Below the pieces are notes generated by a model that made no database searches, had not been told where the DNA came from, and was given only the letters and a program-made list of their open reading frames with translations. From Gammaproteobacteria bacterium (GTDB lineage: Bacteria; Pseudomonadota; Gammaproteobacteria; HK1), in contig JAJECB010000041.1 of assembly GCA_022822245.1 (NCBI GenBank), positions 1 to 21,644 of the forward strand: a stretch of DNA of 21,644 bases, read 5' to 3'. Each line of letters begins with the position of its first letter. The first letter of the stretch is position 1. Made by a program: the position numbers and the translations under genes. Below, one piece after another: positions 7,691-14,103 of this stretch.

Positions 7691-8038
7691 TCAGAGCTTT
7701 TCCTCGACCACCGATTGCAGCAGCTCCATCTGGTGGGCGACTCCCACCGCGTCCTCGACGTCGATCTGGAACGCGATGCCCGCCCCGCTCTGGTCGAAAT
7801 CCCCCACCTGCTCGATGGCCTCGAGCACCCCGCGGCTCAGGTGCTCCTCGACGAGGAACAGAAGCATGTCGCGGGAGGTTTCGAGCGAGAGCCCGAGGAA
7901 GGTCTTCTTCACGTCCACCCCTTCTCCGCGTACCCGGCTCACGACGGTCGAACCGAGCGCCCCCTTCTCGCGGGTGGCGTGGAGGATGGGCTCGGTGTGG
8001 GAGTCGTCCACGAGCGCCACGATCAGTTTGAAGTGCAT
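7691..8038 (-). CDS. P-II-like regulatory protein linked to DUF1538
   Basis: This 115-residue protein has a ferredoxin-like P-II fold: strand MHFKLIVALVDD, a helix, GSTVVSRVRGEG, and the C-terminal SGAGIAFQIDVEDAVGV, which resembles the GTGIAF...VEDVVG segment of P-II relatives. The canonical uridylylated T-loop with its Tyr is missing: the segment between GEG and the next strand is short and reads VDVKKTFLGL. It is therefore not a standard GlnB or GlnK. The ATG at 8038 has a GGAGG ribosome site. It follows two DUF1538 membrane genes by about 50 bp, an arrangement known in other proteobacteria. It probably gates the DUF1538 transporter in response to an unknown small ligand. Confidence 0.85.
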   Translation of the reverse strand: MHFKLIVALVDDSHTEPILHATREKGALGSTVVSRVRGEGVDVKKTFLGLSLETSRDMLLFLVEEHLSRGVLEAIEQVGDFDQSGAGIAFQIDVEDAVGVAHQMELLQSVVEEKL

Positions 8039-8088
8039 GTCGGTTGAATCCTCCGAGTTTTTCGGACGGCTCTCTCCCGGCCCGGGCT

Positions 8089-8853
8089 TCAGCCGCGGCG
8101 TGACGCCCGCCAGCGCGACGCCTGGGCGTAGGCGAGGACGGCCATGATGGGGAAGAGGCTCGCGAACGCGATGAGCCCGAAGCCGTCCAGGGTCGGACTC
8201 CGGCCGGGGACCGACGAGGCGAGCCCGAGCCCGAGGGCGGTGACGATGGGCACGGTCACCGTCGACGTGGTGACCCCGCCCGAGTCGTACGCGAGCGCGA
8301 CGATGCCCCGCGGGGCCATCGTGGTCTGGATGAGGACCAGGGCATAGCCCGCGATGATGTAGTAGTGGAGCGGGGTCCCGGTCACGATGCGCAGCACCCC
8401 GACCGCGACCCCGATCGCGACCCCGATCGCGACCGCGACCCGGAGTCCGGTCACCCCGATGGCGCCGCCGGAGACCTCGTTGGCCTTGATCGACACAGCC
8501 ATCAGCGAGGGCTCCGCGATGGTGGTGGAGAACCCGATCGCGGCGGCGAAAAGATAGACCCAGGCATAGTGCTCCCAGCCGACGGCGCCACCTCCCGACA
8601 CGCCGAGGAACACGGGGTCCGCGAGCTGCCGGGCCATGCTCCGGCCGAGGGGGAAGAGCGCCTTCTCGAGCCCGATGAGGAAGAGCCCGAGGCCCAGGGT
8701 CACGTAGACGAGCCCCATGACGACGGCGCGGGGGTTCGGGATGGGCCGGCCCACCACGAAACGCTGGAACGCGAACAGCACGATGACGATGGGGGCGACG
8801 TCGAAGGTCACCCCGAGAAGCAGCATCGCGGCGTCGACGAGGAAGCCGATCAC
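8089..8853 (-). CDS. DUF1538 membrane protein, second of pair
   Basis: This 254-residue multi-pass membrane protein has about seven hydrophobic segments. It carries the two DUF1538 signatures: GFSTTIAEPSLMAVSIKA in the first half, and YDSGGVTTSTVTVP followed by TALGLGLASS and DGFGLIAFASLFP in the second. The start is GTG at 8853, overlapping the stop of the upstream paralogue by 4 nt (GTGA), which indicates translational coupling. A paired DUF1538 system from Halomonas zhaodongensis (UmpAB) has been reported as a two-subunit Na+(K+, Li+)/H+ antiporter, so an ion-antiport role is likely but not proven here. A 12-bp-period repeat at 8401-8440 encodes the Ala/Val/Ile/Gly-rich helix. Confidence 0.88.
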   Translation of the reverse strand: MIGFLVDAAMLLLGVTFDVAPIVIVLFAFQRFVVGRPIPNPRAVVMGLVYVTLGLGLFLIGLEKALFPLGRSMARQLADPVFLGVSGGGAVGWEHYAWVYLFAAAIGFSTTIAEPSLMAVSIKANEVSGGAIGVTGLRVAVAIGVAIGVAVGVLRIVTGTPLHYYIIAGYALVLIQTTMAPRGIVALAYDSGGVTTSTVTVPIVTALGLGLASSVPGRSPTLDGFGLIAFASLFPIMAVLAYAQASRWRASRRG

Positions 8854-9599
8854 CCGAGCCCCCTCCCCATGGCTCCCGCGATGAGCCCGTAGAGCATGAC
8901 CGCCGCCATCGGGGTGAGGGAGGCGAACGCGATGAGCCCGAAGCCGTCGGTGAGGGGATTGCGGCCGCGGATGCTCGATGCAAGCCCGATCCCGAGGGCG
9001 GTGATGAGGGGGACGGTGACCGTGCCCGTGGTCACCCCCCCCGAGTCGTAGGCGATGCCGATGATCTCGGGCGGGGCGAACCAGGTGAGGACGACGATCG
9101 CGGTGTAGCCCCCGATGATGAGGTAGTGGATGGGCCAGCCGCGGAGGATCCGGTACACGCCGACGAGCCCCGCGAAGCCGACCGCGAGCGCGACCGAGAG
9201 ACGCAGGCCCAGGGCGTACGCGTCCTGCTCGTCGGCGCCACGACCGACGATGCCTTCATCGGCCGCGACCCGGGCCGCCTCCTTGGTCACCGCGATGAGG
9301 GCGGGCTCGGCGACCGTCGTTCCGAATCCGAGGCCGAACGCGAACACGAGGAGCCAGGGAAGGCTCCCCTTGCGGGCGAGACCGTCCGCGAGCATCGAGC
9401 CGATCGGGAACAGCCCCGCCTCGAGCCCTCGGACGAAGAGGGCGAGGCCGACGACGACGCAGGCGCAGCCCACCACCAGGTCGAGGAAGTCGGGGATCGG
9501 CTGGCGCAGCACCAGCACCTGGAACGCGGCGATGACGAGGATGATCGGCGCGAGATCCCGGACACTGTCCCGCAGGGTTCTGACGAGGGGCTGGAGCAT
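8850..9599 (-). CDS. DUF1538 membrane protein, first of pair
   Basis: This 249-residue membrane protein is paralogous to its downstream neighbour; both have GFGTTVAEPALIAV/GFSTTIAEPSLMAV and YDSGGVTT.TVTVP signatures with the same spacing. The motif DGFGLIAFASLTP near the C-terminus is nearly identical in the two. Charged residues inside hydrophobic segments (the Glu of AEP and the Asp of YDSGG) are candidates for ion binding. It is the first gene of a four-gene leftward unit (DUF1538, DUF1538, P-II-like, ampD) that starts at ATG 9599. A perfect TATAAT box lies about 40 bp upstream (9643-9638). The ribosome site is weak. Confidence 0.88.
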   Translation of the reverse strand: MLQPLVRTLRDSVRDLAPIILVIAAFQVLVLRQPIPDFLDLVVGCACVVVGLALFVRGLEAGLFPIGSMLADGLARKGSLPWLLVFAFGLGFGTTVAEPALIAVTKEAARVAADEGIVGRGADEQDAYALGLRLSVALAVGFAGLVGVYRILRGWPIHYLIIGGYTAIVVLTWFAPPEIIGIAYDSGGVTTGTVTVPLITALGIGLASSIRGRNPLTDGFGLIAFASLTPMAAVMLYGLIAGAMGRGLG

Positions 9600-9700: not shown

Positions 9701-11020
9701 TCAGTCCGCCTCGTGGATGCGGGGCACCTTGTGGGGCGGCCCGAGGGCGAGGAGGGTCTCCGCGTCCACCCAGTCGATTCGGGCGGGAAGTCCGAGGGCG
9801 TCCTCGAGGCTCGCCTCGAGCCGCGGCTTGAGACCCGCGGGGTCGGCAATCTCCCCTTCGCGGGTGCCGACCCGCAGGCGGAGGGTCTCCATGTCCGGGC
9901 CGGTCCGGACGATCTGGAAGAGGCCGTGGTCCACCTCCGGCCAGTGCTCGAGGATCCGCTGAACCTCGACCGGGAACACCGTCTGCCCCCGGACGCTCAC
10001 CCGGTATCCCACCCGCCCGAGGAAGTGGAGCCGGGTGCTCGTCCGCCCGCACGCGCACGGCTCGGTGGTGGCGGTGCCGATGTCCTCGCTCCGCCAGCGG
10101 ATGAAGGCGAGCGATTCGTCCATGAGGGAGGTGAACAGGAACTCGCCGCGCTCCCCCTCCGCCACCGGGGTGGTCGTTCCGGGCTCCACCACCTCGACGA
10201 ACCAGAGATCGTCGTGCATGTGCAGGCCGTCGTGCTGGTCGCACTCCTGCATCATGAAGCAGAGATCACCGGTCCCGGAGAGCTCGAAGGCCTCGCTGCC
10301 CCACTGCTCGTCGACGAGACGGCGCGCCTTCGGGGTCAGCGCGTCGCCGGCCCAGATGAACCCCCGGGTGCTCCCCAGGATCTCCTTCGGATCGAGCCCG
10401 AGGCGCGCGATCTCGGCGCGGAGCCCGATCGCCTGGGGCGGGGAGAGGAAGGCGTGCACGTCGGGCTTGAGGTAGCGGAAGGTCTGCACCACGCGCGGGA
10501 GGTCCGGCCAGTCGGTAAACGTCACCCGGGCGCCGATGCGCCGGGCCGCGTCGGCGAGGGCGAACGCGGGGCGCAGGTAGAGGGCGAGGGACAGGCTCGC
10601 CAACCCGCCCGGGCGCAGCCCCGCCGCCCACAGATGACGCGCGAGGGACTCGGCGAAGATCGACTTGTCGCGGTCCGTGATGGGGAGGAAGGTCGGGGCC
10701 CCGGTGGTCCCGGAGCTCGTGTGGACGTCGCAGGGCACGTCCGCGGGGAGGAGACTCATCCCCCCGTAGGGATCGCCGGTGTCGTCCCGGACCTGCCGGA
10801 CCATCTCCTTGTGCACGGTGGGGGCGGCGCGGACGAAGTCATCGAGGGATCGGATGTCGCCGGGGTGCACTCCGGACGCCTTCCATTCCCGCCGGAGGAG
10901 GCTCGATCCGGCCCACGCGATCGGCAGCCGGGCGAGGAGCCGGGCTTCCTGGAGGGCCCGCATCCGGTCCGTCGGCAGGGTCTCCATCTCGTCGTTCCAG
11001 AACCGGCGCGGCGCGTCCAT
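9701..11020 (-). CDS. PaaK-like (phenylacetate-CoA ligase family) acyl-CoA ligase
   Basis: This 439-residue member of the ANL adenylating superfamily activates a carboxylic acid with ATP and then transfers it to CoA. Visible motifs are HTSSGTTGAPTFLP (P-loop, near residue 92), IWAGDALTP, the ECDQHDGLHMHDD segment typical of PaaK relatives, RSEDIG (ADP-ribose-contacting Asp) and CACGRTSTRLHFLGR followed by RVSVRGQTVFPVEV at the hinge. The length is normal for PaaK. The ATG at 11020 has GGGAG 9 nt upstream. It is the last gene of a leftward group after an E1 gene and a mini-E2, from which it is 43 bp away. No other phenylacetate genes are nearby, so the true substrate is unknown; an aryl- or branched-chain acid is a guess. 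Confidence 0.85.
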   Translation of the reverse strand: MDAPRRFWNDEMETLPTDRMRALQEARLLARLPIAWAGSSLLRREWKASGVHPGDIRSLDDFVRAAPTVHKEMVRQVRDDTGDPYGGMSLLPADVPCDVHTSSGTTGAPTFLPITDRDKSIFAESLARHLWAAGLRPGGLASLSLALYLRPAFALADAARRIGARVTFTDWPDLPRVVQTFRYLKPDVHAFLSPPQAIGLRAEIARLGLDPKEILGSTRGFIWAGDALTPKARRLVDEQWGSEAFELSGTGDLCFMMQECDQHDGLHMHDDLWFVEVVEPGTTTPVAEGERGEFLFTSLMDESLAFIRWRSEDIGTATTEPCACGRTSTRLHFLGRVGYRVSVRGQTVFPVEVQRILEHWPEVDHGLFQIVRTGPDMETLRLRVGTREGEIADPAGLKPRLEASLEDALGLPARIDWVDAETLLALGPPHKVPRIHEAD

Positions 11021-11063: not shown

Positions 11064-11657
11064 TCAAAGGAGGGCCCGCCGGGGGTCGAGGCAAAGCCAT
11101 CGAAGCCGTTCGAGGAAGGCCGCGCCCTCCTCCCTTGCGCCCGCGTCGAGCTCGAGGCCGAACCGGATCGACTCCGATTGGAGGATGATCGCGACCACCG
11201 CCCCGGCCGGCCGGTCCCCTCCGCCGGCCGAGGCAGGGGGGAGGACGGTCTCCGGGGCATCCGAGGGGCGGAGCGCGAACGCCGTTTCCGAGAGTCCGGG
11301 AAAGTCCCGCCGTGCGGCCCCGCAGAGCCGCACCGCGATCTCGACCGCCTTCGGCGGCTCCGCGGCGACGGCCGCGAGCGCGCCGCAGGTCTCCCGGACC
11401 GCCCTGGCGTCGCAGGTGATCTCCATGCGAAGGGTCCCCTCCCCCGCCTCCCCGTCCGAATCCGCTTCCGCATCCCCGGGGAAAACGGTCCGGGGCTGCG
11501 GCGGCCGGGCCGCCGCGGGCGGTCTCCGCCCCGCCTCCCGGAGCACGTCGGTCAGGGTGGCGGCACCGCCCGGGCCGCTCCCGGCCACCCCGGCCGCATC
11601 CAGTCCGAGCTGCCGCGCCACCCGATCGGCGAACGAGCCGGCGGAGGAATCGGACAA
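11064..11657 (-). CDS. Mini-E2: E3-binding domain plus degenerate acyltransferase domain
   Basis: This protein has 197 residues. Residues 7-42 resemble a peripheral subunit-binding (E3BD) domain of 2-oxoacid dehydrogenase E2 chains (ADRVARQLGLDAAGVAGSGPGG, TLTDVLREA). After a Pro/Ala-rich acidic linker (43-75), residues 76-197 resemble a shortened E2 catalytic domain, ending FLERLRWLCLDPRRALL like the canonical C-terminus. There is no lipoyl domain, and where E2 has the HxxxDG motif this protein has Leu168 and Ala172. It therefore cannot act as a normal acyltransferase. The start is TTG at 11657, 4 nt after the E1 stop, with GGAG upstream, so it is translationally coupled to E1. It may anchor E1 or E3 to a complex. 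The domain call rests on visual similarity. Confidence 0.6.
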   Translation of the reverse strand: MSDSSAGSFADRVARQLGLDAAGVAGSGPGGAATLTDVLREAGRRPPAAARPPQPRTVFPGDAEADSDGEAGEGTLRMEITCDARAVRETCGALAAVAAEPPKAVEIAVRLCGAARRDFPGLSETAFALRPSDAPETVLPPASAGGGDRPAGAVVAIILQSESIRFGLELDAGAREEGAAFLERLRWLCLDPRRALL

Positions 11658-11661
11658 CGGG

Positions 11662-14103
11662 CTACTCCGAGATCACCGCGGCCGCGATCGTGTCGAGGAT
11701 CGCGTCGATGTCGATGCGATGGTGGGCATACAGCTCCGGGACGCTGCCCGACTGCCCGAAGTGGTCGACGCCGAGCGGGAAGCAACGGTGTCCGGCGACC
11801 GAGCCGATCCAGTCGAGCGACCCCGGATGGGCATCGGCCACGGTGACGAGTCTCGCCCCGGGAGGGAGGGGGTCCAGGAGCCGTTCAAGGTGGGAGCGGA
11901 CCCCGCGGTCTCCCTCGCGGCGGGCCCGGGCCGCCGCCCGCCACCCGGTCGCCAGCCGGTCGGGAGAGGTGACCGCGAGCACTCCGGCTCCCGGCAGCTC
12001 CCCCCGCACCGCCTCGTGCGCGGCGCGGGCCTCGTCCGCGACCGCCCCCGCGTAGACGACGGCGAGATCCGACCCCGGCGCGGGCGGGATCAGCCAGTAT
12101 CCACCGAGCAGGATCTCGGCCGCGTCGGTCTCGGACAGCTCCCGGACCGGCTGCTCGACGGCCCGCGTGCTCAGGCGAAGGTACACCGAGCCGCCCGCTT
12201 CGTCTCCGGGAAGGCCCGGCACCGATGCCGGCGCCTCCCCTCCCGACCGCCCGCGCTGCATGTAGTCGAACCCCCACCGCATGATGACGGCCAGCTCGTC
12301 GGCGAACGCCGGCTCGAAGGCGGCAAGCCGATCCTGGCCCATGCCGATGAGCGGGGTGGAGATGGACTGGTGGGCCCCGCCTTCGGGGGCAAGGCTGATC
12401 CCGGACGGGGTGGCGACGAGGAGGAACCGGGCGTCCTGGTAGCAGGCGTAGCTGAGGGCGTCGAGGCCCCGCTGGATGAAGGGGTCGTACAGGGTGCCGA
12501 CGGGCAGCAGCCGCTGTCCGAAGAGGGAGTCCGAGAGCCCGAGCGTCCCGAGCAGAATGAACAGGTTGTTCTCCGCGATGCCGAGCTCGATGTGCTGCCC
12601 CCGCGGCGAGGCGGCCCACGCCTGGAACGAGGCGACCGCCTCCTCGCGAAAGGTGTCGGCCTGCTCCCGGGCGGAGAACACCCCCCGCCGGTTGACCCAT
12701 CCGCCGAGATTGGTGGAGACCGTCACGTCCGGGGACGTGGTGACCACCCGGTCCGCGAACTCGCTCCGCGCCCGTCCGATGGAGGCGAGGATCCGCCCGA
12801 AGCACTCCTGGGTGGAGAGCCGCTCCCCCCTGGGAACGGGAAACGCCTCGGGAACGGTCACCGCGGGGACCTCGTAGCGGCGATTCGCGGCCTCGGCGAA
12901 GGGCGCCCCCGCGATGTACTCCTCCAGCACCTCGGGAGAGAGCGCGAGCCCGGCGAACCGGTCCCACTCCGCCCCCCGCTCGACCCGGTGCCGGCGTCTC
13001 AGCTCGTCCATCTGCTCCACGCTCATCAGGCCCGCGTGGTTGTCCTTGTGACCGGCGAAAGGCAGCCCGTAGCCCTTGATCGTGTAGGCGATGAAGCAGG
13101 TGGGTTCGTCGCTCCCGGCGGCCGCCTCGAACGCTTCCACCACCGCCTCGATGTCGTGGCCGGCGAGGTTCGTCATCAGCCGGGCGAGCCGATCGTCGTC
13201 GAACTCGTCGAGGAGCGCCCGCATCCCGGCGACCTTCCCGAGGTCCTGGGTGAGGCGCTCGCGCCACGCCGCCCCGCCCTTGAACACCATTGCCGAGTAG
13301 AGGGTGTTCGGGCAGTCGTCGATCCACTTCCGGAGCGCGTCGCCCCCGCGCCGGCGGAATACCCGCTGCAGCTTCTTGCCGTACTTGAGGGTCTCGACCC
13401 GCCAGCCCATGTTCCGGAACAGCTCGTCGAACCGGCCGTACAGCCGGTCGGTGATCACCGAGTCGAGGCTCTGCCGGTTGTAGTCGACGATCCACCACAG
13501 GTTCCGGACCTCGTGCTTCCAGCCCTCCAGCAGCGCCTCGAAGATGTTCCCCTCGTCGAGCTCGGCGTCGCCGGCAAGGGCGATCATGCGCCCGTCCGGG
13601 CCGCCGCGGGGCTCCCACTCGTGGGACCGGATGTAGTCCCGGACGATGCTCGCGAAGAGGGTCGCGGCGACCCCGAGCCCTACCGATCCGGTCGAGAAGT
13701 CGACGTCGTCCTCGTCCTTGGTGCGCGAGGGATAGGCCTGCGCTCCGCCAAAGGCGCGGAACCGCTCCAGGTTCTCGCGGGACTGGCGCCCGAAGAGGTA
13801 CTGGATGGCGTGGAACGCGGGGCTCGCGTGCGGCTTGACCGCGACCCGGTCCCCGGGGCGGAGGATCGCGAAGTAGAGCGCGGTCATCAAAGCGACGACC
13901 GACGCGCTCGATGCCTGGTGCCCGCCGACCTTGAGGCCGTCCTCGTTGGGCCGGACGTGGTTCGCGTGGTGGACCGTCCAGCTCGCGAGCCACAGCACCT
14001 TGCGTTCGAGCTCGCGCAGCACCTCGAATCGGTCGGGCGACGGCTCGCCGACCCGCCCTTCGGGCCGCGGACTGTCCGGCGCCGGTTCGATTCGAGCCGC
14101 CAT
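11662..14103 (-). CDS. Thiamine-diphosphate 2-oxoacid dehydrogenase E1, AceE/MdeB type
   Basis: This 813-residue enzyme resembles homodimeric pyruvate dehydrogenase E1 (AceE, 887 residues) and the related MdeB-type E1 linked to 2-oxobutyrate oxidation in Pseudomonas. It would decarboxylate a 2-oxoacid on ThDP and pass the acyl group to lipoyl-E2. The ThDP/Mg site reads GDAELDEGN (178-186) with Asn209, a variant of GDG...N. The region VGGHQASSAS (59-68) is the transketolase N-terminal segment, GHKDNHAG (351-358) corresponds to the active-centre loop, and ELGIAENN (506-513) carries the glutamate that activates ThDP (Glu511). The ATG at 14103 has GGAAGGG upstream. It is followed without a gap by the mini-E2. 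The substrate is unknown; branched or short 2-oxoacids are possible. Confidence 0.85.
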   Translation of the reverse strand: MAARIEPAPDSPRPEGRVGEPSPDRFEVLRELERKVLWLASWTVHHANHVRPNEDGLKVGGHQASSASVVALMTALYFAILRPGDRVAVKPHASPAFHAIQYLFGRQSRENLERFRAFGGAQAYPSRTKDEDDVDFSTGSVGLGVAATLFASIVRDYIRSHEWEPRGGPDGRMIALAGDAELDEGNIFEALLEGWKHEVRNLWWIVDYNRQSLDSVITDRLYGRFDELFRNMGWRVETLKYGKKLQRVFRRRGGDALRKWIDDCPNTLYSAMVFKGGAAWRERLTQDLGKVAGMRALLDEFDDDRLARLMTNLAGHDIEAVVEAFEAAAGSDEPTCFIAYTIKGYGLPFAGHKDNHAGLMSVEQMDELRRRHRVERGAEWDRFAGLALSPEVLEEYIAGAPFAEAANRRYEVPAVTVPEAFPVPRGERLSTQECFGRILASIGRARSEFADRVVTTSPDVTVSTNLGGWVNRRGVFSAREQADTFREEAVASFQAWAASPRGQHIELGIAENNLFILLGTLGLSDSLFGQRLLPVGTLYDPFIQRGLDALSYACYQDARFLLVATPSGISLAPEGGAHQSISTPLIGMGQDRLAAFEPAFADELAVIMRWGFDYMQRGRSGGEAPASVPGLPGDEAGGSVYLRLSTRAVEQPVRELSETDAAEILLGGYWLIPPAPGSDLAVVYAGAVADEARAAHEAVRGELPGAGVLAVTSPDRLATGWRAAARARREGDRGVRSHLERLLDPLPPGARLVTVADAHPGSLDWIGSVAGHRCFPLGVDHFGQSGSVPELYAHHRIDIDAILDTIAAAVISE

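Follow-up and report, generated by a model that had tools for sequence, protein, structure and literature searches.

A reduced E2 homologue kept beside an AceE-like E1

The window, the whole stretch of 21,644 nucleotides analysed here, contains a gene for what is apparently a bacterial E2 turned into a lipoyl-free, non-catalytic protein, which is kept beside its E1 and is composed of parts like those of the fungal E3BP. The 197-residue protein (mini-E2) is encoded between the genes of an AceE-like E1 and a PaaK-like ligase. Catalytically dead E2-derived subunits are known from the eukaryotic pyruvate dehydrogenase (E3BP), and no bacterial one was found in the literature searched. The arrangement raises the question of where this E1, having no lipoyl domain of its own, sends its acyl groups.

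Features of the window discussed in the text:
11064..11657, minus strand: mini-E2 gene, ORF of 197 aa running from a TTG start at 11657 to the stop at 11064
11541..11624, minus strand: peripheral subunit-binding domain (PSBD, E3_binding), mini-E2 residues 12-39; Pfam 25.8 bits, model helices 9-16 and 35-41
11067..11435, minus strand: reduced E2 catalytic-domain fold, mini-E2 residues 75-197; AF2 model, structural matches
11662..14103, minus strand: AceE-like E1 of 813 aa, whose stop lies 4 nt before mini-E2
9701..11020, minus strand: PaaK-like AMP-forming CoA ligase of 439 aa, the next gene after mini-E2 both in the window and in all three other mini-E2 genomes

The preliminary description of this DNA had read the gene as a reduced E2 carrying a PSBD, and both parts are recovered. 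E3_binding is the only Pfam family found at E <= 1, and its match to residues 12-39 exceeds the cut-off of 23.7 bits (E 1.2e-5). Biotin_lipoyl gives no match, and no NCBIfam family matches at E <= 0.1. In the AF2 model (mean pLDDT 77.1, pTM 0.59), the PSBD helices are joined to an E2 catalytic-domain fold of the CAT type, as that description had expected of a structure prediction. The pLDDT by block is 74-94 from residue 71 onward, except for 49-69 at residues 131-150. E2 catalytic domains are the structural matches of the model, and the OdhA/KGD-type structures 8p5s and 2xt6 are also among them. The window lineage lacks the middle of the catalytic core, whereas the PSBD fold, the beginning of the core (first strand and helices) and its end (C-terminal strands and helix) remain. 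The plus-strand reading of 11064-11657 is unrelated to mini-E2.

In an alignment with the complete E2 of genome G620, which belongs to the same order, the DHRVTDG motif falls opposite GLELDAG of mini-E2. This alignment places Leu168 on the catalytic His and Ala172 on the Asp, the same two residues that had been assigned from the window alone, and the Gly of the motif is kept. With the motif absent and the fold present, the core is probably catalytically inactive.

Motifs and cysteines of the mini-E2 family

The mini-E2 family comprises 80 protein clusters, the window's own included, with lengths from the 110s to 280 residues. A protein search with mini-E2 first gave 64 matches, and a profile search gave 82, of which 76 are family members, including 17 additional ones, and six are genuine E2s. 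Among the 7,991 candidates scored with the profile, none is sized between 280 aa and a complete E2. A plasmid origin was rejected, as tblastn of mini-E2 against 72,556 plasmid records gave no match. P0065, encoded on a contig of 676 bases, is SDR-like, has only the C-terminal end in common with mini-E2 and was removed from the family; its combination of an SDR-like N-terminus with the mini-E2 C-terminal end is perhaps an assembly chimaera.

Regular expressions detect neither HxxxDG nor a lipoyl-lysine motif in any of the 80 members, which extends to the whole family the absence of both that had been noted for the window's protein. The C-terminal pattern FLxxLxx[LF]CxDP is present in 78 of the 80. 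The PSBD patterns are found in 75 (helix 2) and 54 (helix 1) of the 80 members, several of whose gene calls begin within the PSBD. In addition, the family profile finds the PSBD structure 1w4i at E 5.4e-9. The long member from genome G624 scores 20.9 bits on E3_binding, under the cut-off, and P0187, recorded as a hypothetical protein of an Immundisolibacterales bacterium, is the gene of this genome (100%).

Four cysteine columns are conserved, with C82 and C189 present in 52/52 aligned rows, C91 in 47/52 and C112 in 42/52. They could point to a new role, either as a metal or redox site or as a thiol taking the acyl group instead of the lipoyl dithiol. We regard such a role as very improbable, since P0202 lacks C82 and C91, P0190 lacks C189, and the cysteines form no known motif.

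Mini-E2 is derived from a complete E2

Genome G620 of the same order carries an E1 of this kind (72%) followed by a 425-aa E2 (L096:7531-8808, minus strand), the start of which overlaps the E1 stop. This E2 matches Biotin_lipoyl (59.7 bits), E3_binding (36 bits) and 2-oxoacid_dh (264.8 bits), and its DHRVTDG motif is intact. It resembles mini-E2 in its place after the same E1, its PSBD, its colinear core and its C-terminal end, and differs in possessing a lipoyl domain, the HxxxDG motif, a whole core and an Arg after the GxxG of the PSBD. Because this genome keeps a complete E2 behind the same E1, mini-E2 is identified as a reduced full-length E2; position, alignment and fold together show it to be the counterpart of the lipoyl-bearing E2 of G620.

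A tblastn search with the G620 E2 (E 1e-5) leaves the mini-E2 genes unmatched, and the link therefore rests on profiles, fold and position. The full profiles of the mini-E2 family and of E2 align with an hhalign probability of 98.4 (E 7.8e-15). After removal of the PSBD, the cores of the long members still align with E2 cores over 152 colinear columns (score 45.9, probability 87.9, P 3.2e-6), whereas 100 shuffles of the columns reach at most 18.8 and the reversed control reaches 14.2. The short-member cores alone give no significant alignment with E2 cores, only their last 20 residues being aligned. Both the short and the long forms give E2-fold matches.

The length of the core behind its second helix separates a class of 58 short from a class of 24 long cores among 82 sequences (the 80 clusters together with the window and G625). 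On a tree without outgroup, which was built without the middle columns and covers 80 of these rows, the class, set by core length alone, changes four times, and all four changes are forced by well-supported branches. When the G620 E2 is used as outgroup, its branch is very long and the root is unsure, so the changes may be read as losses of the core middle by analogy with the complete E2. The position behind the same E1 as a bacterial complete E2 suggests that the origin of mini-E2 is apparently separate from that of eukaryotic E3BP. Since a complete E2, a long mini-E2 and a short mini-E2 can be compared behind one E1, the steps from enzyme to structural part are open to testing.

Distribution and linkage to E1

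The gene pair singled out in the preliminary description recurs in other genomes. With the mini-E2 profile, an E1-linked mini-E2 was found in 3 of the 17 genomes of one gammaproteobacterial order, a member of which is named Immundisolibacterales. Synteny and the 97% E1 identity to G623 place the window probably in this order as well. No paper on a host of the order was found in the literature searched. The gene order is E1 - mini-E2 - PaaK-like ligase in all three, and the order around E1 in the window is common to them as far as the contigs reach. Their E1 proteins are 97 (G623), 90 and 88% identical to the window E1. Relatives of the window's PaaK-like gene at 88-95% identity occur beside mini-E2 in these three genomes and nowhere else in the order; some match to the ligase exists in 12/17 genomes of the order, those beyond the three at <= 31%. 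Moreover, the TTG start, the GGAG before it and the 4-nt gap to the E1 stop are common to all four mini-E2 loci, which agrees with the coupling to E1 described earlier. Three weak matches of the mini-E2 profile (E 5e-6 to 6e-5; G623, G624 and G618) sit in longer frames with a PSBD.

At E <= 1e-200, the E1 is matched in 28/299 and 15/200 genomes of two overlapping phylum samples and in 1/321 genomes of a class sample, none of them close, and in 6/17 genomes in the order of G001, including the three named above. A scan of genome contigs with the E1 profile gave at least 80 loci, and among the matches listed none is above 66% identity; the ORFs behind E1 were looked at in up to 47 of them. The alphaproteobacterial E1 relatives were rejected as a source of mini-E2, the sole match by tblastn with the one E2 from G620 among these at least 80 loci being at L057. 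In the search with this E2 (E <= 1e-5), 3 of 98 E1 loci, some of which end close to E1, were matched; two are the same place in G620 and the third is L057, where the match lies 1.7 kb or more from E1. E1 of this kind thus mostly occurs without a linked E2.

The protein clusters show the same association. If an equal size of the longest contig is taken as the same contig, 10 of the 24 close E1 clusters share it with a mini-E2 cluster, compared with 0/96 of the more distant ones. These counts include the partial E1 P0126 (90%), which was put in the close tier, and become 10/23 and 0/97 without that move.

Mini-E2 is under purifying selection

Mini-E2 is under purifying selection, weaker than that on E1 and the ligase. 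In three informative pairs, the omega of mini-E2 is 0.47 (window-G625, bootstrap range 0.33-0.67), 0.41 (window-G624, 0.28-0.55) and 0.44 (G625-G624, 0.30-0.62). The PSBD and core parts in these pairs give values of 0.30-0.49, and the 18-codon linker gives 1.18, 0.59 and 1.12, respectively; in two of the three pairs the linker is under less constraint than the PSBD and core. The neighbouring genes have lower values, 0.11-0.18 for E1 and 0.12-0.20 for the ligase. In the closest pair, window-G623, omega is 0.77 (0.39-1.89) and reaches 1.38 in one core part, with too few changes to decide.

It is conceivable that an active E2 became needless behind this E1 and that mini-E2 is its slowly decaying relic, the ORF persisting because of its shortness, its translational coupling and the scarcity of stop codons in a GC-rich genome. 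Mini-E2 does change faster than E1, its core middle has apparently been lost repeatedly, and the range for the window-G623 pair exceeds 1. A stop-free frame is itself no proof of selection and was rejected as such, because 26-65% of simulated copies stay stop-free under random neutral substitutions. However, the omega of 0.41-0.47 with ranges under 1 and the tighter PSBD and core argue against decay, as do the retention of both ends in members down to 36% identity and the start, frame and spacing, which are unchanged in 4/4 loci. We therefore find a decaying relic distinctly improbable, in line with the earlier judgement that the gene is not an accident of decay. That judgement had set a degraded full-length E2 against a functional association. 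The gene is indeed a reduced full-length E2, as seen from G620, yet purifying selection acts on it in this shortened state.

Lipoyl domains in mini-E2 genomes

Each of the three genomes with mini-E2 (G623, G624 and G625) has a PDH-type E2 beside an AceE-like E1, and a second E2 is readable in G624 and G625. In addition, each encodes a free-standing lipoyl-domain protein of 79-80 aa with the motif EVDKAT (L148:5100-5342, L149:5304-5543 and L150:5171-5413, all on the minus strand). The lipoyl-domain matches of G620, seven in number, all lie in frames of at least 170 residues. Acylation in trans by free or canonical lipoyl domains would be possible.

Judged by sequence, the genes that stand with the lipoyl protein at L150 encode an aldehyde dehydrogenase, an SDR and two fusions, one of E1 alpha and beta and one of the ABC transporter type; none in this stretch looked like an E2. 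The same three genomes also encode a free-standing 73-aa carrier of the biotinyl type with the motif ESMKM (L151:4874-5095, L152:5121-5342 and L153:212-433).

The PSBD, the E1 and possible partners

The E1 of the window is profile-aligned with AceE, the homodimeric PDH E1, but has no counterpart of the AceE N-terminal region: residues 26-794 of the E1 profile align with AceE 76-849 (E 2.8e-43), and the alignment begins at AceE residue 76. It scores 172.5 bits, compared with the aceE equivalog cut-off of 859.9. The window E1 retains most of the residues that align with the active site of AceE; the loop histidine 407 of AceE aligns with a Gly, and a His is found two places earlier. An assignment of this solo E1 to the MdeB type was not adopted, as no paper with that gene name was found in the literature searched.

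Canonical PSBDs carry arginines at two positions, one before the basic residue of helix 1 and one after GxxG. Among the family members readable by the patterns, the first position is never Arg (0/54; D, G, S, E, A, H or N instead), nor is the second (0/76; A, S, P, V, T, D or G instead). Among the remaining E2s in eight genomes of this order, counted by eye in the readable rows, Arg occupies the first place in 20/21 (Gln in L118) and the second in 19/21 (Gln in L115, Leu in L114), and the E1-linked G620 E2 has Thr and Arg. As its PSBD is without the arginines of canonical PSBDs, E3 binding by mini-E2 is doubtful. Basic PSBD residues bind partners, and the N-terminal region of AceE binds the PSBD, according to PMC6270654. 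The name PSBD should not be read as a function here, because the arginines are lost and the E1 is without the AceE N-terminal region.

According to PMC10156792 and PMC7494870, eukaryotic E3BP (protein X) is an E2 homologue that combines a PSBD with a catalytically inactive core, as mini-E2 probably does; in fungi this core is reduced, and some Eurotiomycetes sequences are even without a lipoyl domain. E3BP mostly keeps the lipoyl domain and recruits E3, whereas mini-E2 is bacterial, lies beside E1, matches the local E2 in position and has residues other than Arg at both canonical PSBD sites.

By its E2-derived end, mini-E2 might join the core of the cell's canonical E2p or E2o, with its PSBD bringing E3 or E1, or it might cap that core and tune its size. 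Such an adaptor would have the parts of fungal E3BP, a PSBD and a reduced inactive core-binding domain (PMC10156792 and PMC7494870). Canonical E2s are present in the mini-E2 genomes. The C-terminus of the E2 core makes contacts between trimers, and the C-terminal end of mini-E2 is conserved. However, the PSBD arginines are lost, and the linkage of mini-E2 is with this E1, not with the canonical PDH genes; we consider an adaptor unlikely, though deserving of serious weight.

Proposed role of mini-E2

The retention of a shrunken, apparently dead E2 right beside E1 in these uncultured bacteria suggests a structural rather than a catalytic role. We put at about an even chance that mini-E2 is a non-catalytic structural partner that would bind its E1. 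The complete E2 behind the E1 of G620, the recurrent linkage to E1 and ligase, the omega of the informative pairs, the changes in the core middle, the fold matches and the conserved C-terminal end speak for such a partner; the lost PSBD arginines, the missing AceE N-terminal region, the many E1 loci of this kind with no linked E2, and a selection weaker than on the neighbours, together with the window-G623 value, speak against it. In this proposal, mini-E2 would be translated together with E1, and its E2-derived body with the conserved C-terminal tail would self-associate or dock, gathering E1 into a complex. The acyl groups of E1 could then pass in trans to the lipoyl domains of canonical E2s or of the free lipoyl protein. 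Alternatively, the product of E1 might be activated by the neighbouring PaaK-like ligase.

A partly comparable arrangement exists in actinobacteria, where the E2-type domain of OdhA/KGD is fused to E1, catalytically active and without a lipoyl domain of its own. Both systems pair an E2-core fold with an E1 and have no lipoyl domain attached to that fold. Mini-E2 differs in being a separate ORF 4 nt downstream of E1 and an apparently inactive chain with a PSBD.

A more far-reaching view is that of a 2-oxoacid dehydrogenase taken apart. Its E2 would be a scaffold only, a bacterial counterpart of E3BP produced by repeated trimming, and the CoA thioester would be made by the ATP-dependent PaaK-like ligase or via the free-standing lipoyl proteins. 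We hold this view to be speculative and quite unlikely.

Ligase and gene neighbourhood

Among solved structures, the PaaK-like ligase has its best relative in 2-hydroxyisobutyryl-CoA synthetase (6hdw, E 3.3e-39), by a narrow margin over PaaK, and the Pfam match of the ligase is confined to its C-terminal domain. In the window, a transglutaminase gene lies upstream of E1 on the same strand. In G620 (L096:11317-11826), G616 and G001 (L097, L098), the place upstream of this E1 type is taken by a divergent gene that, from a look at the sequence, encodes an AsnC/Lrp-type regulator. At 7691-9599, the window contains a pair of neighbouring DUF1538 genes and, after them, a P-II-like gene; the two DUF1538 proteins show 45-50% identity to each other's places in relatives.
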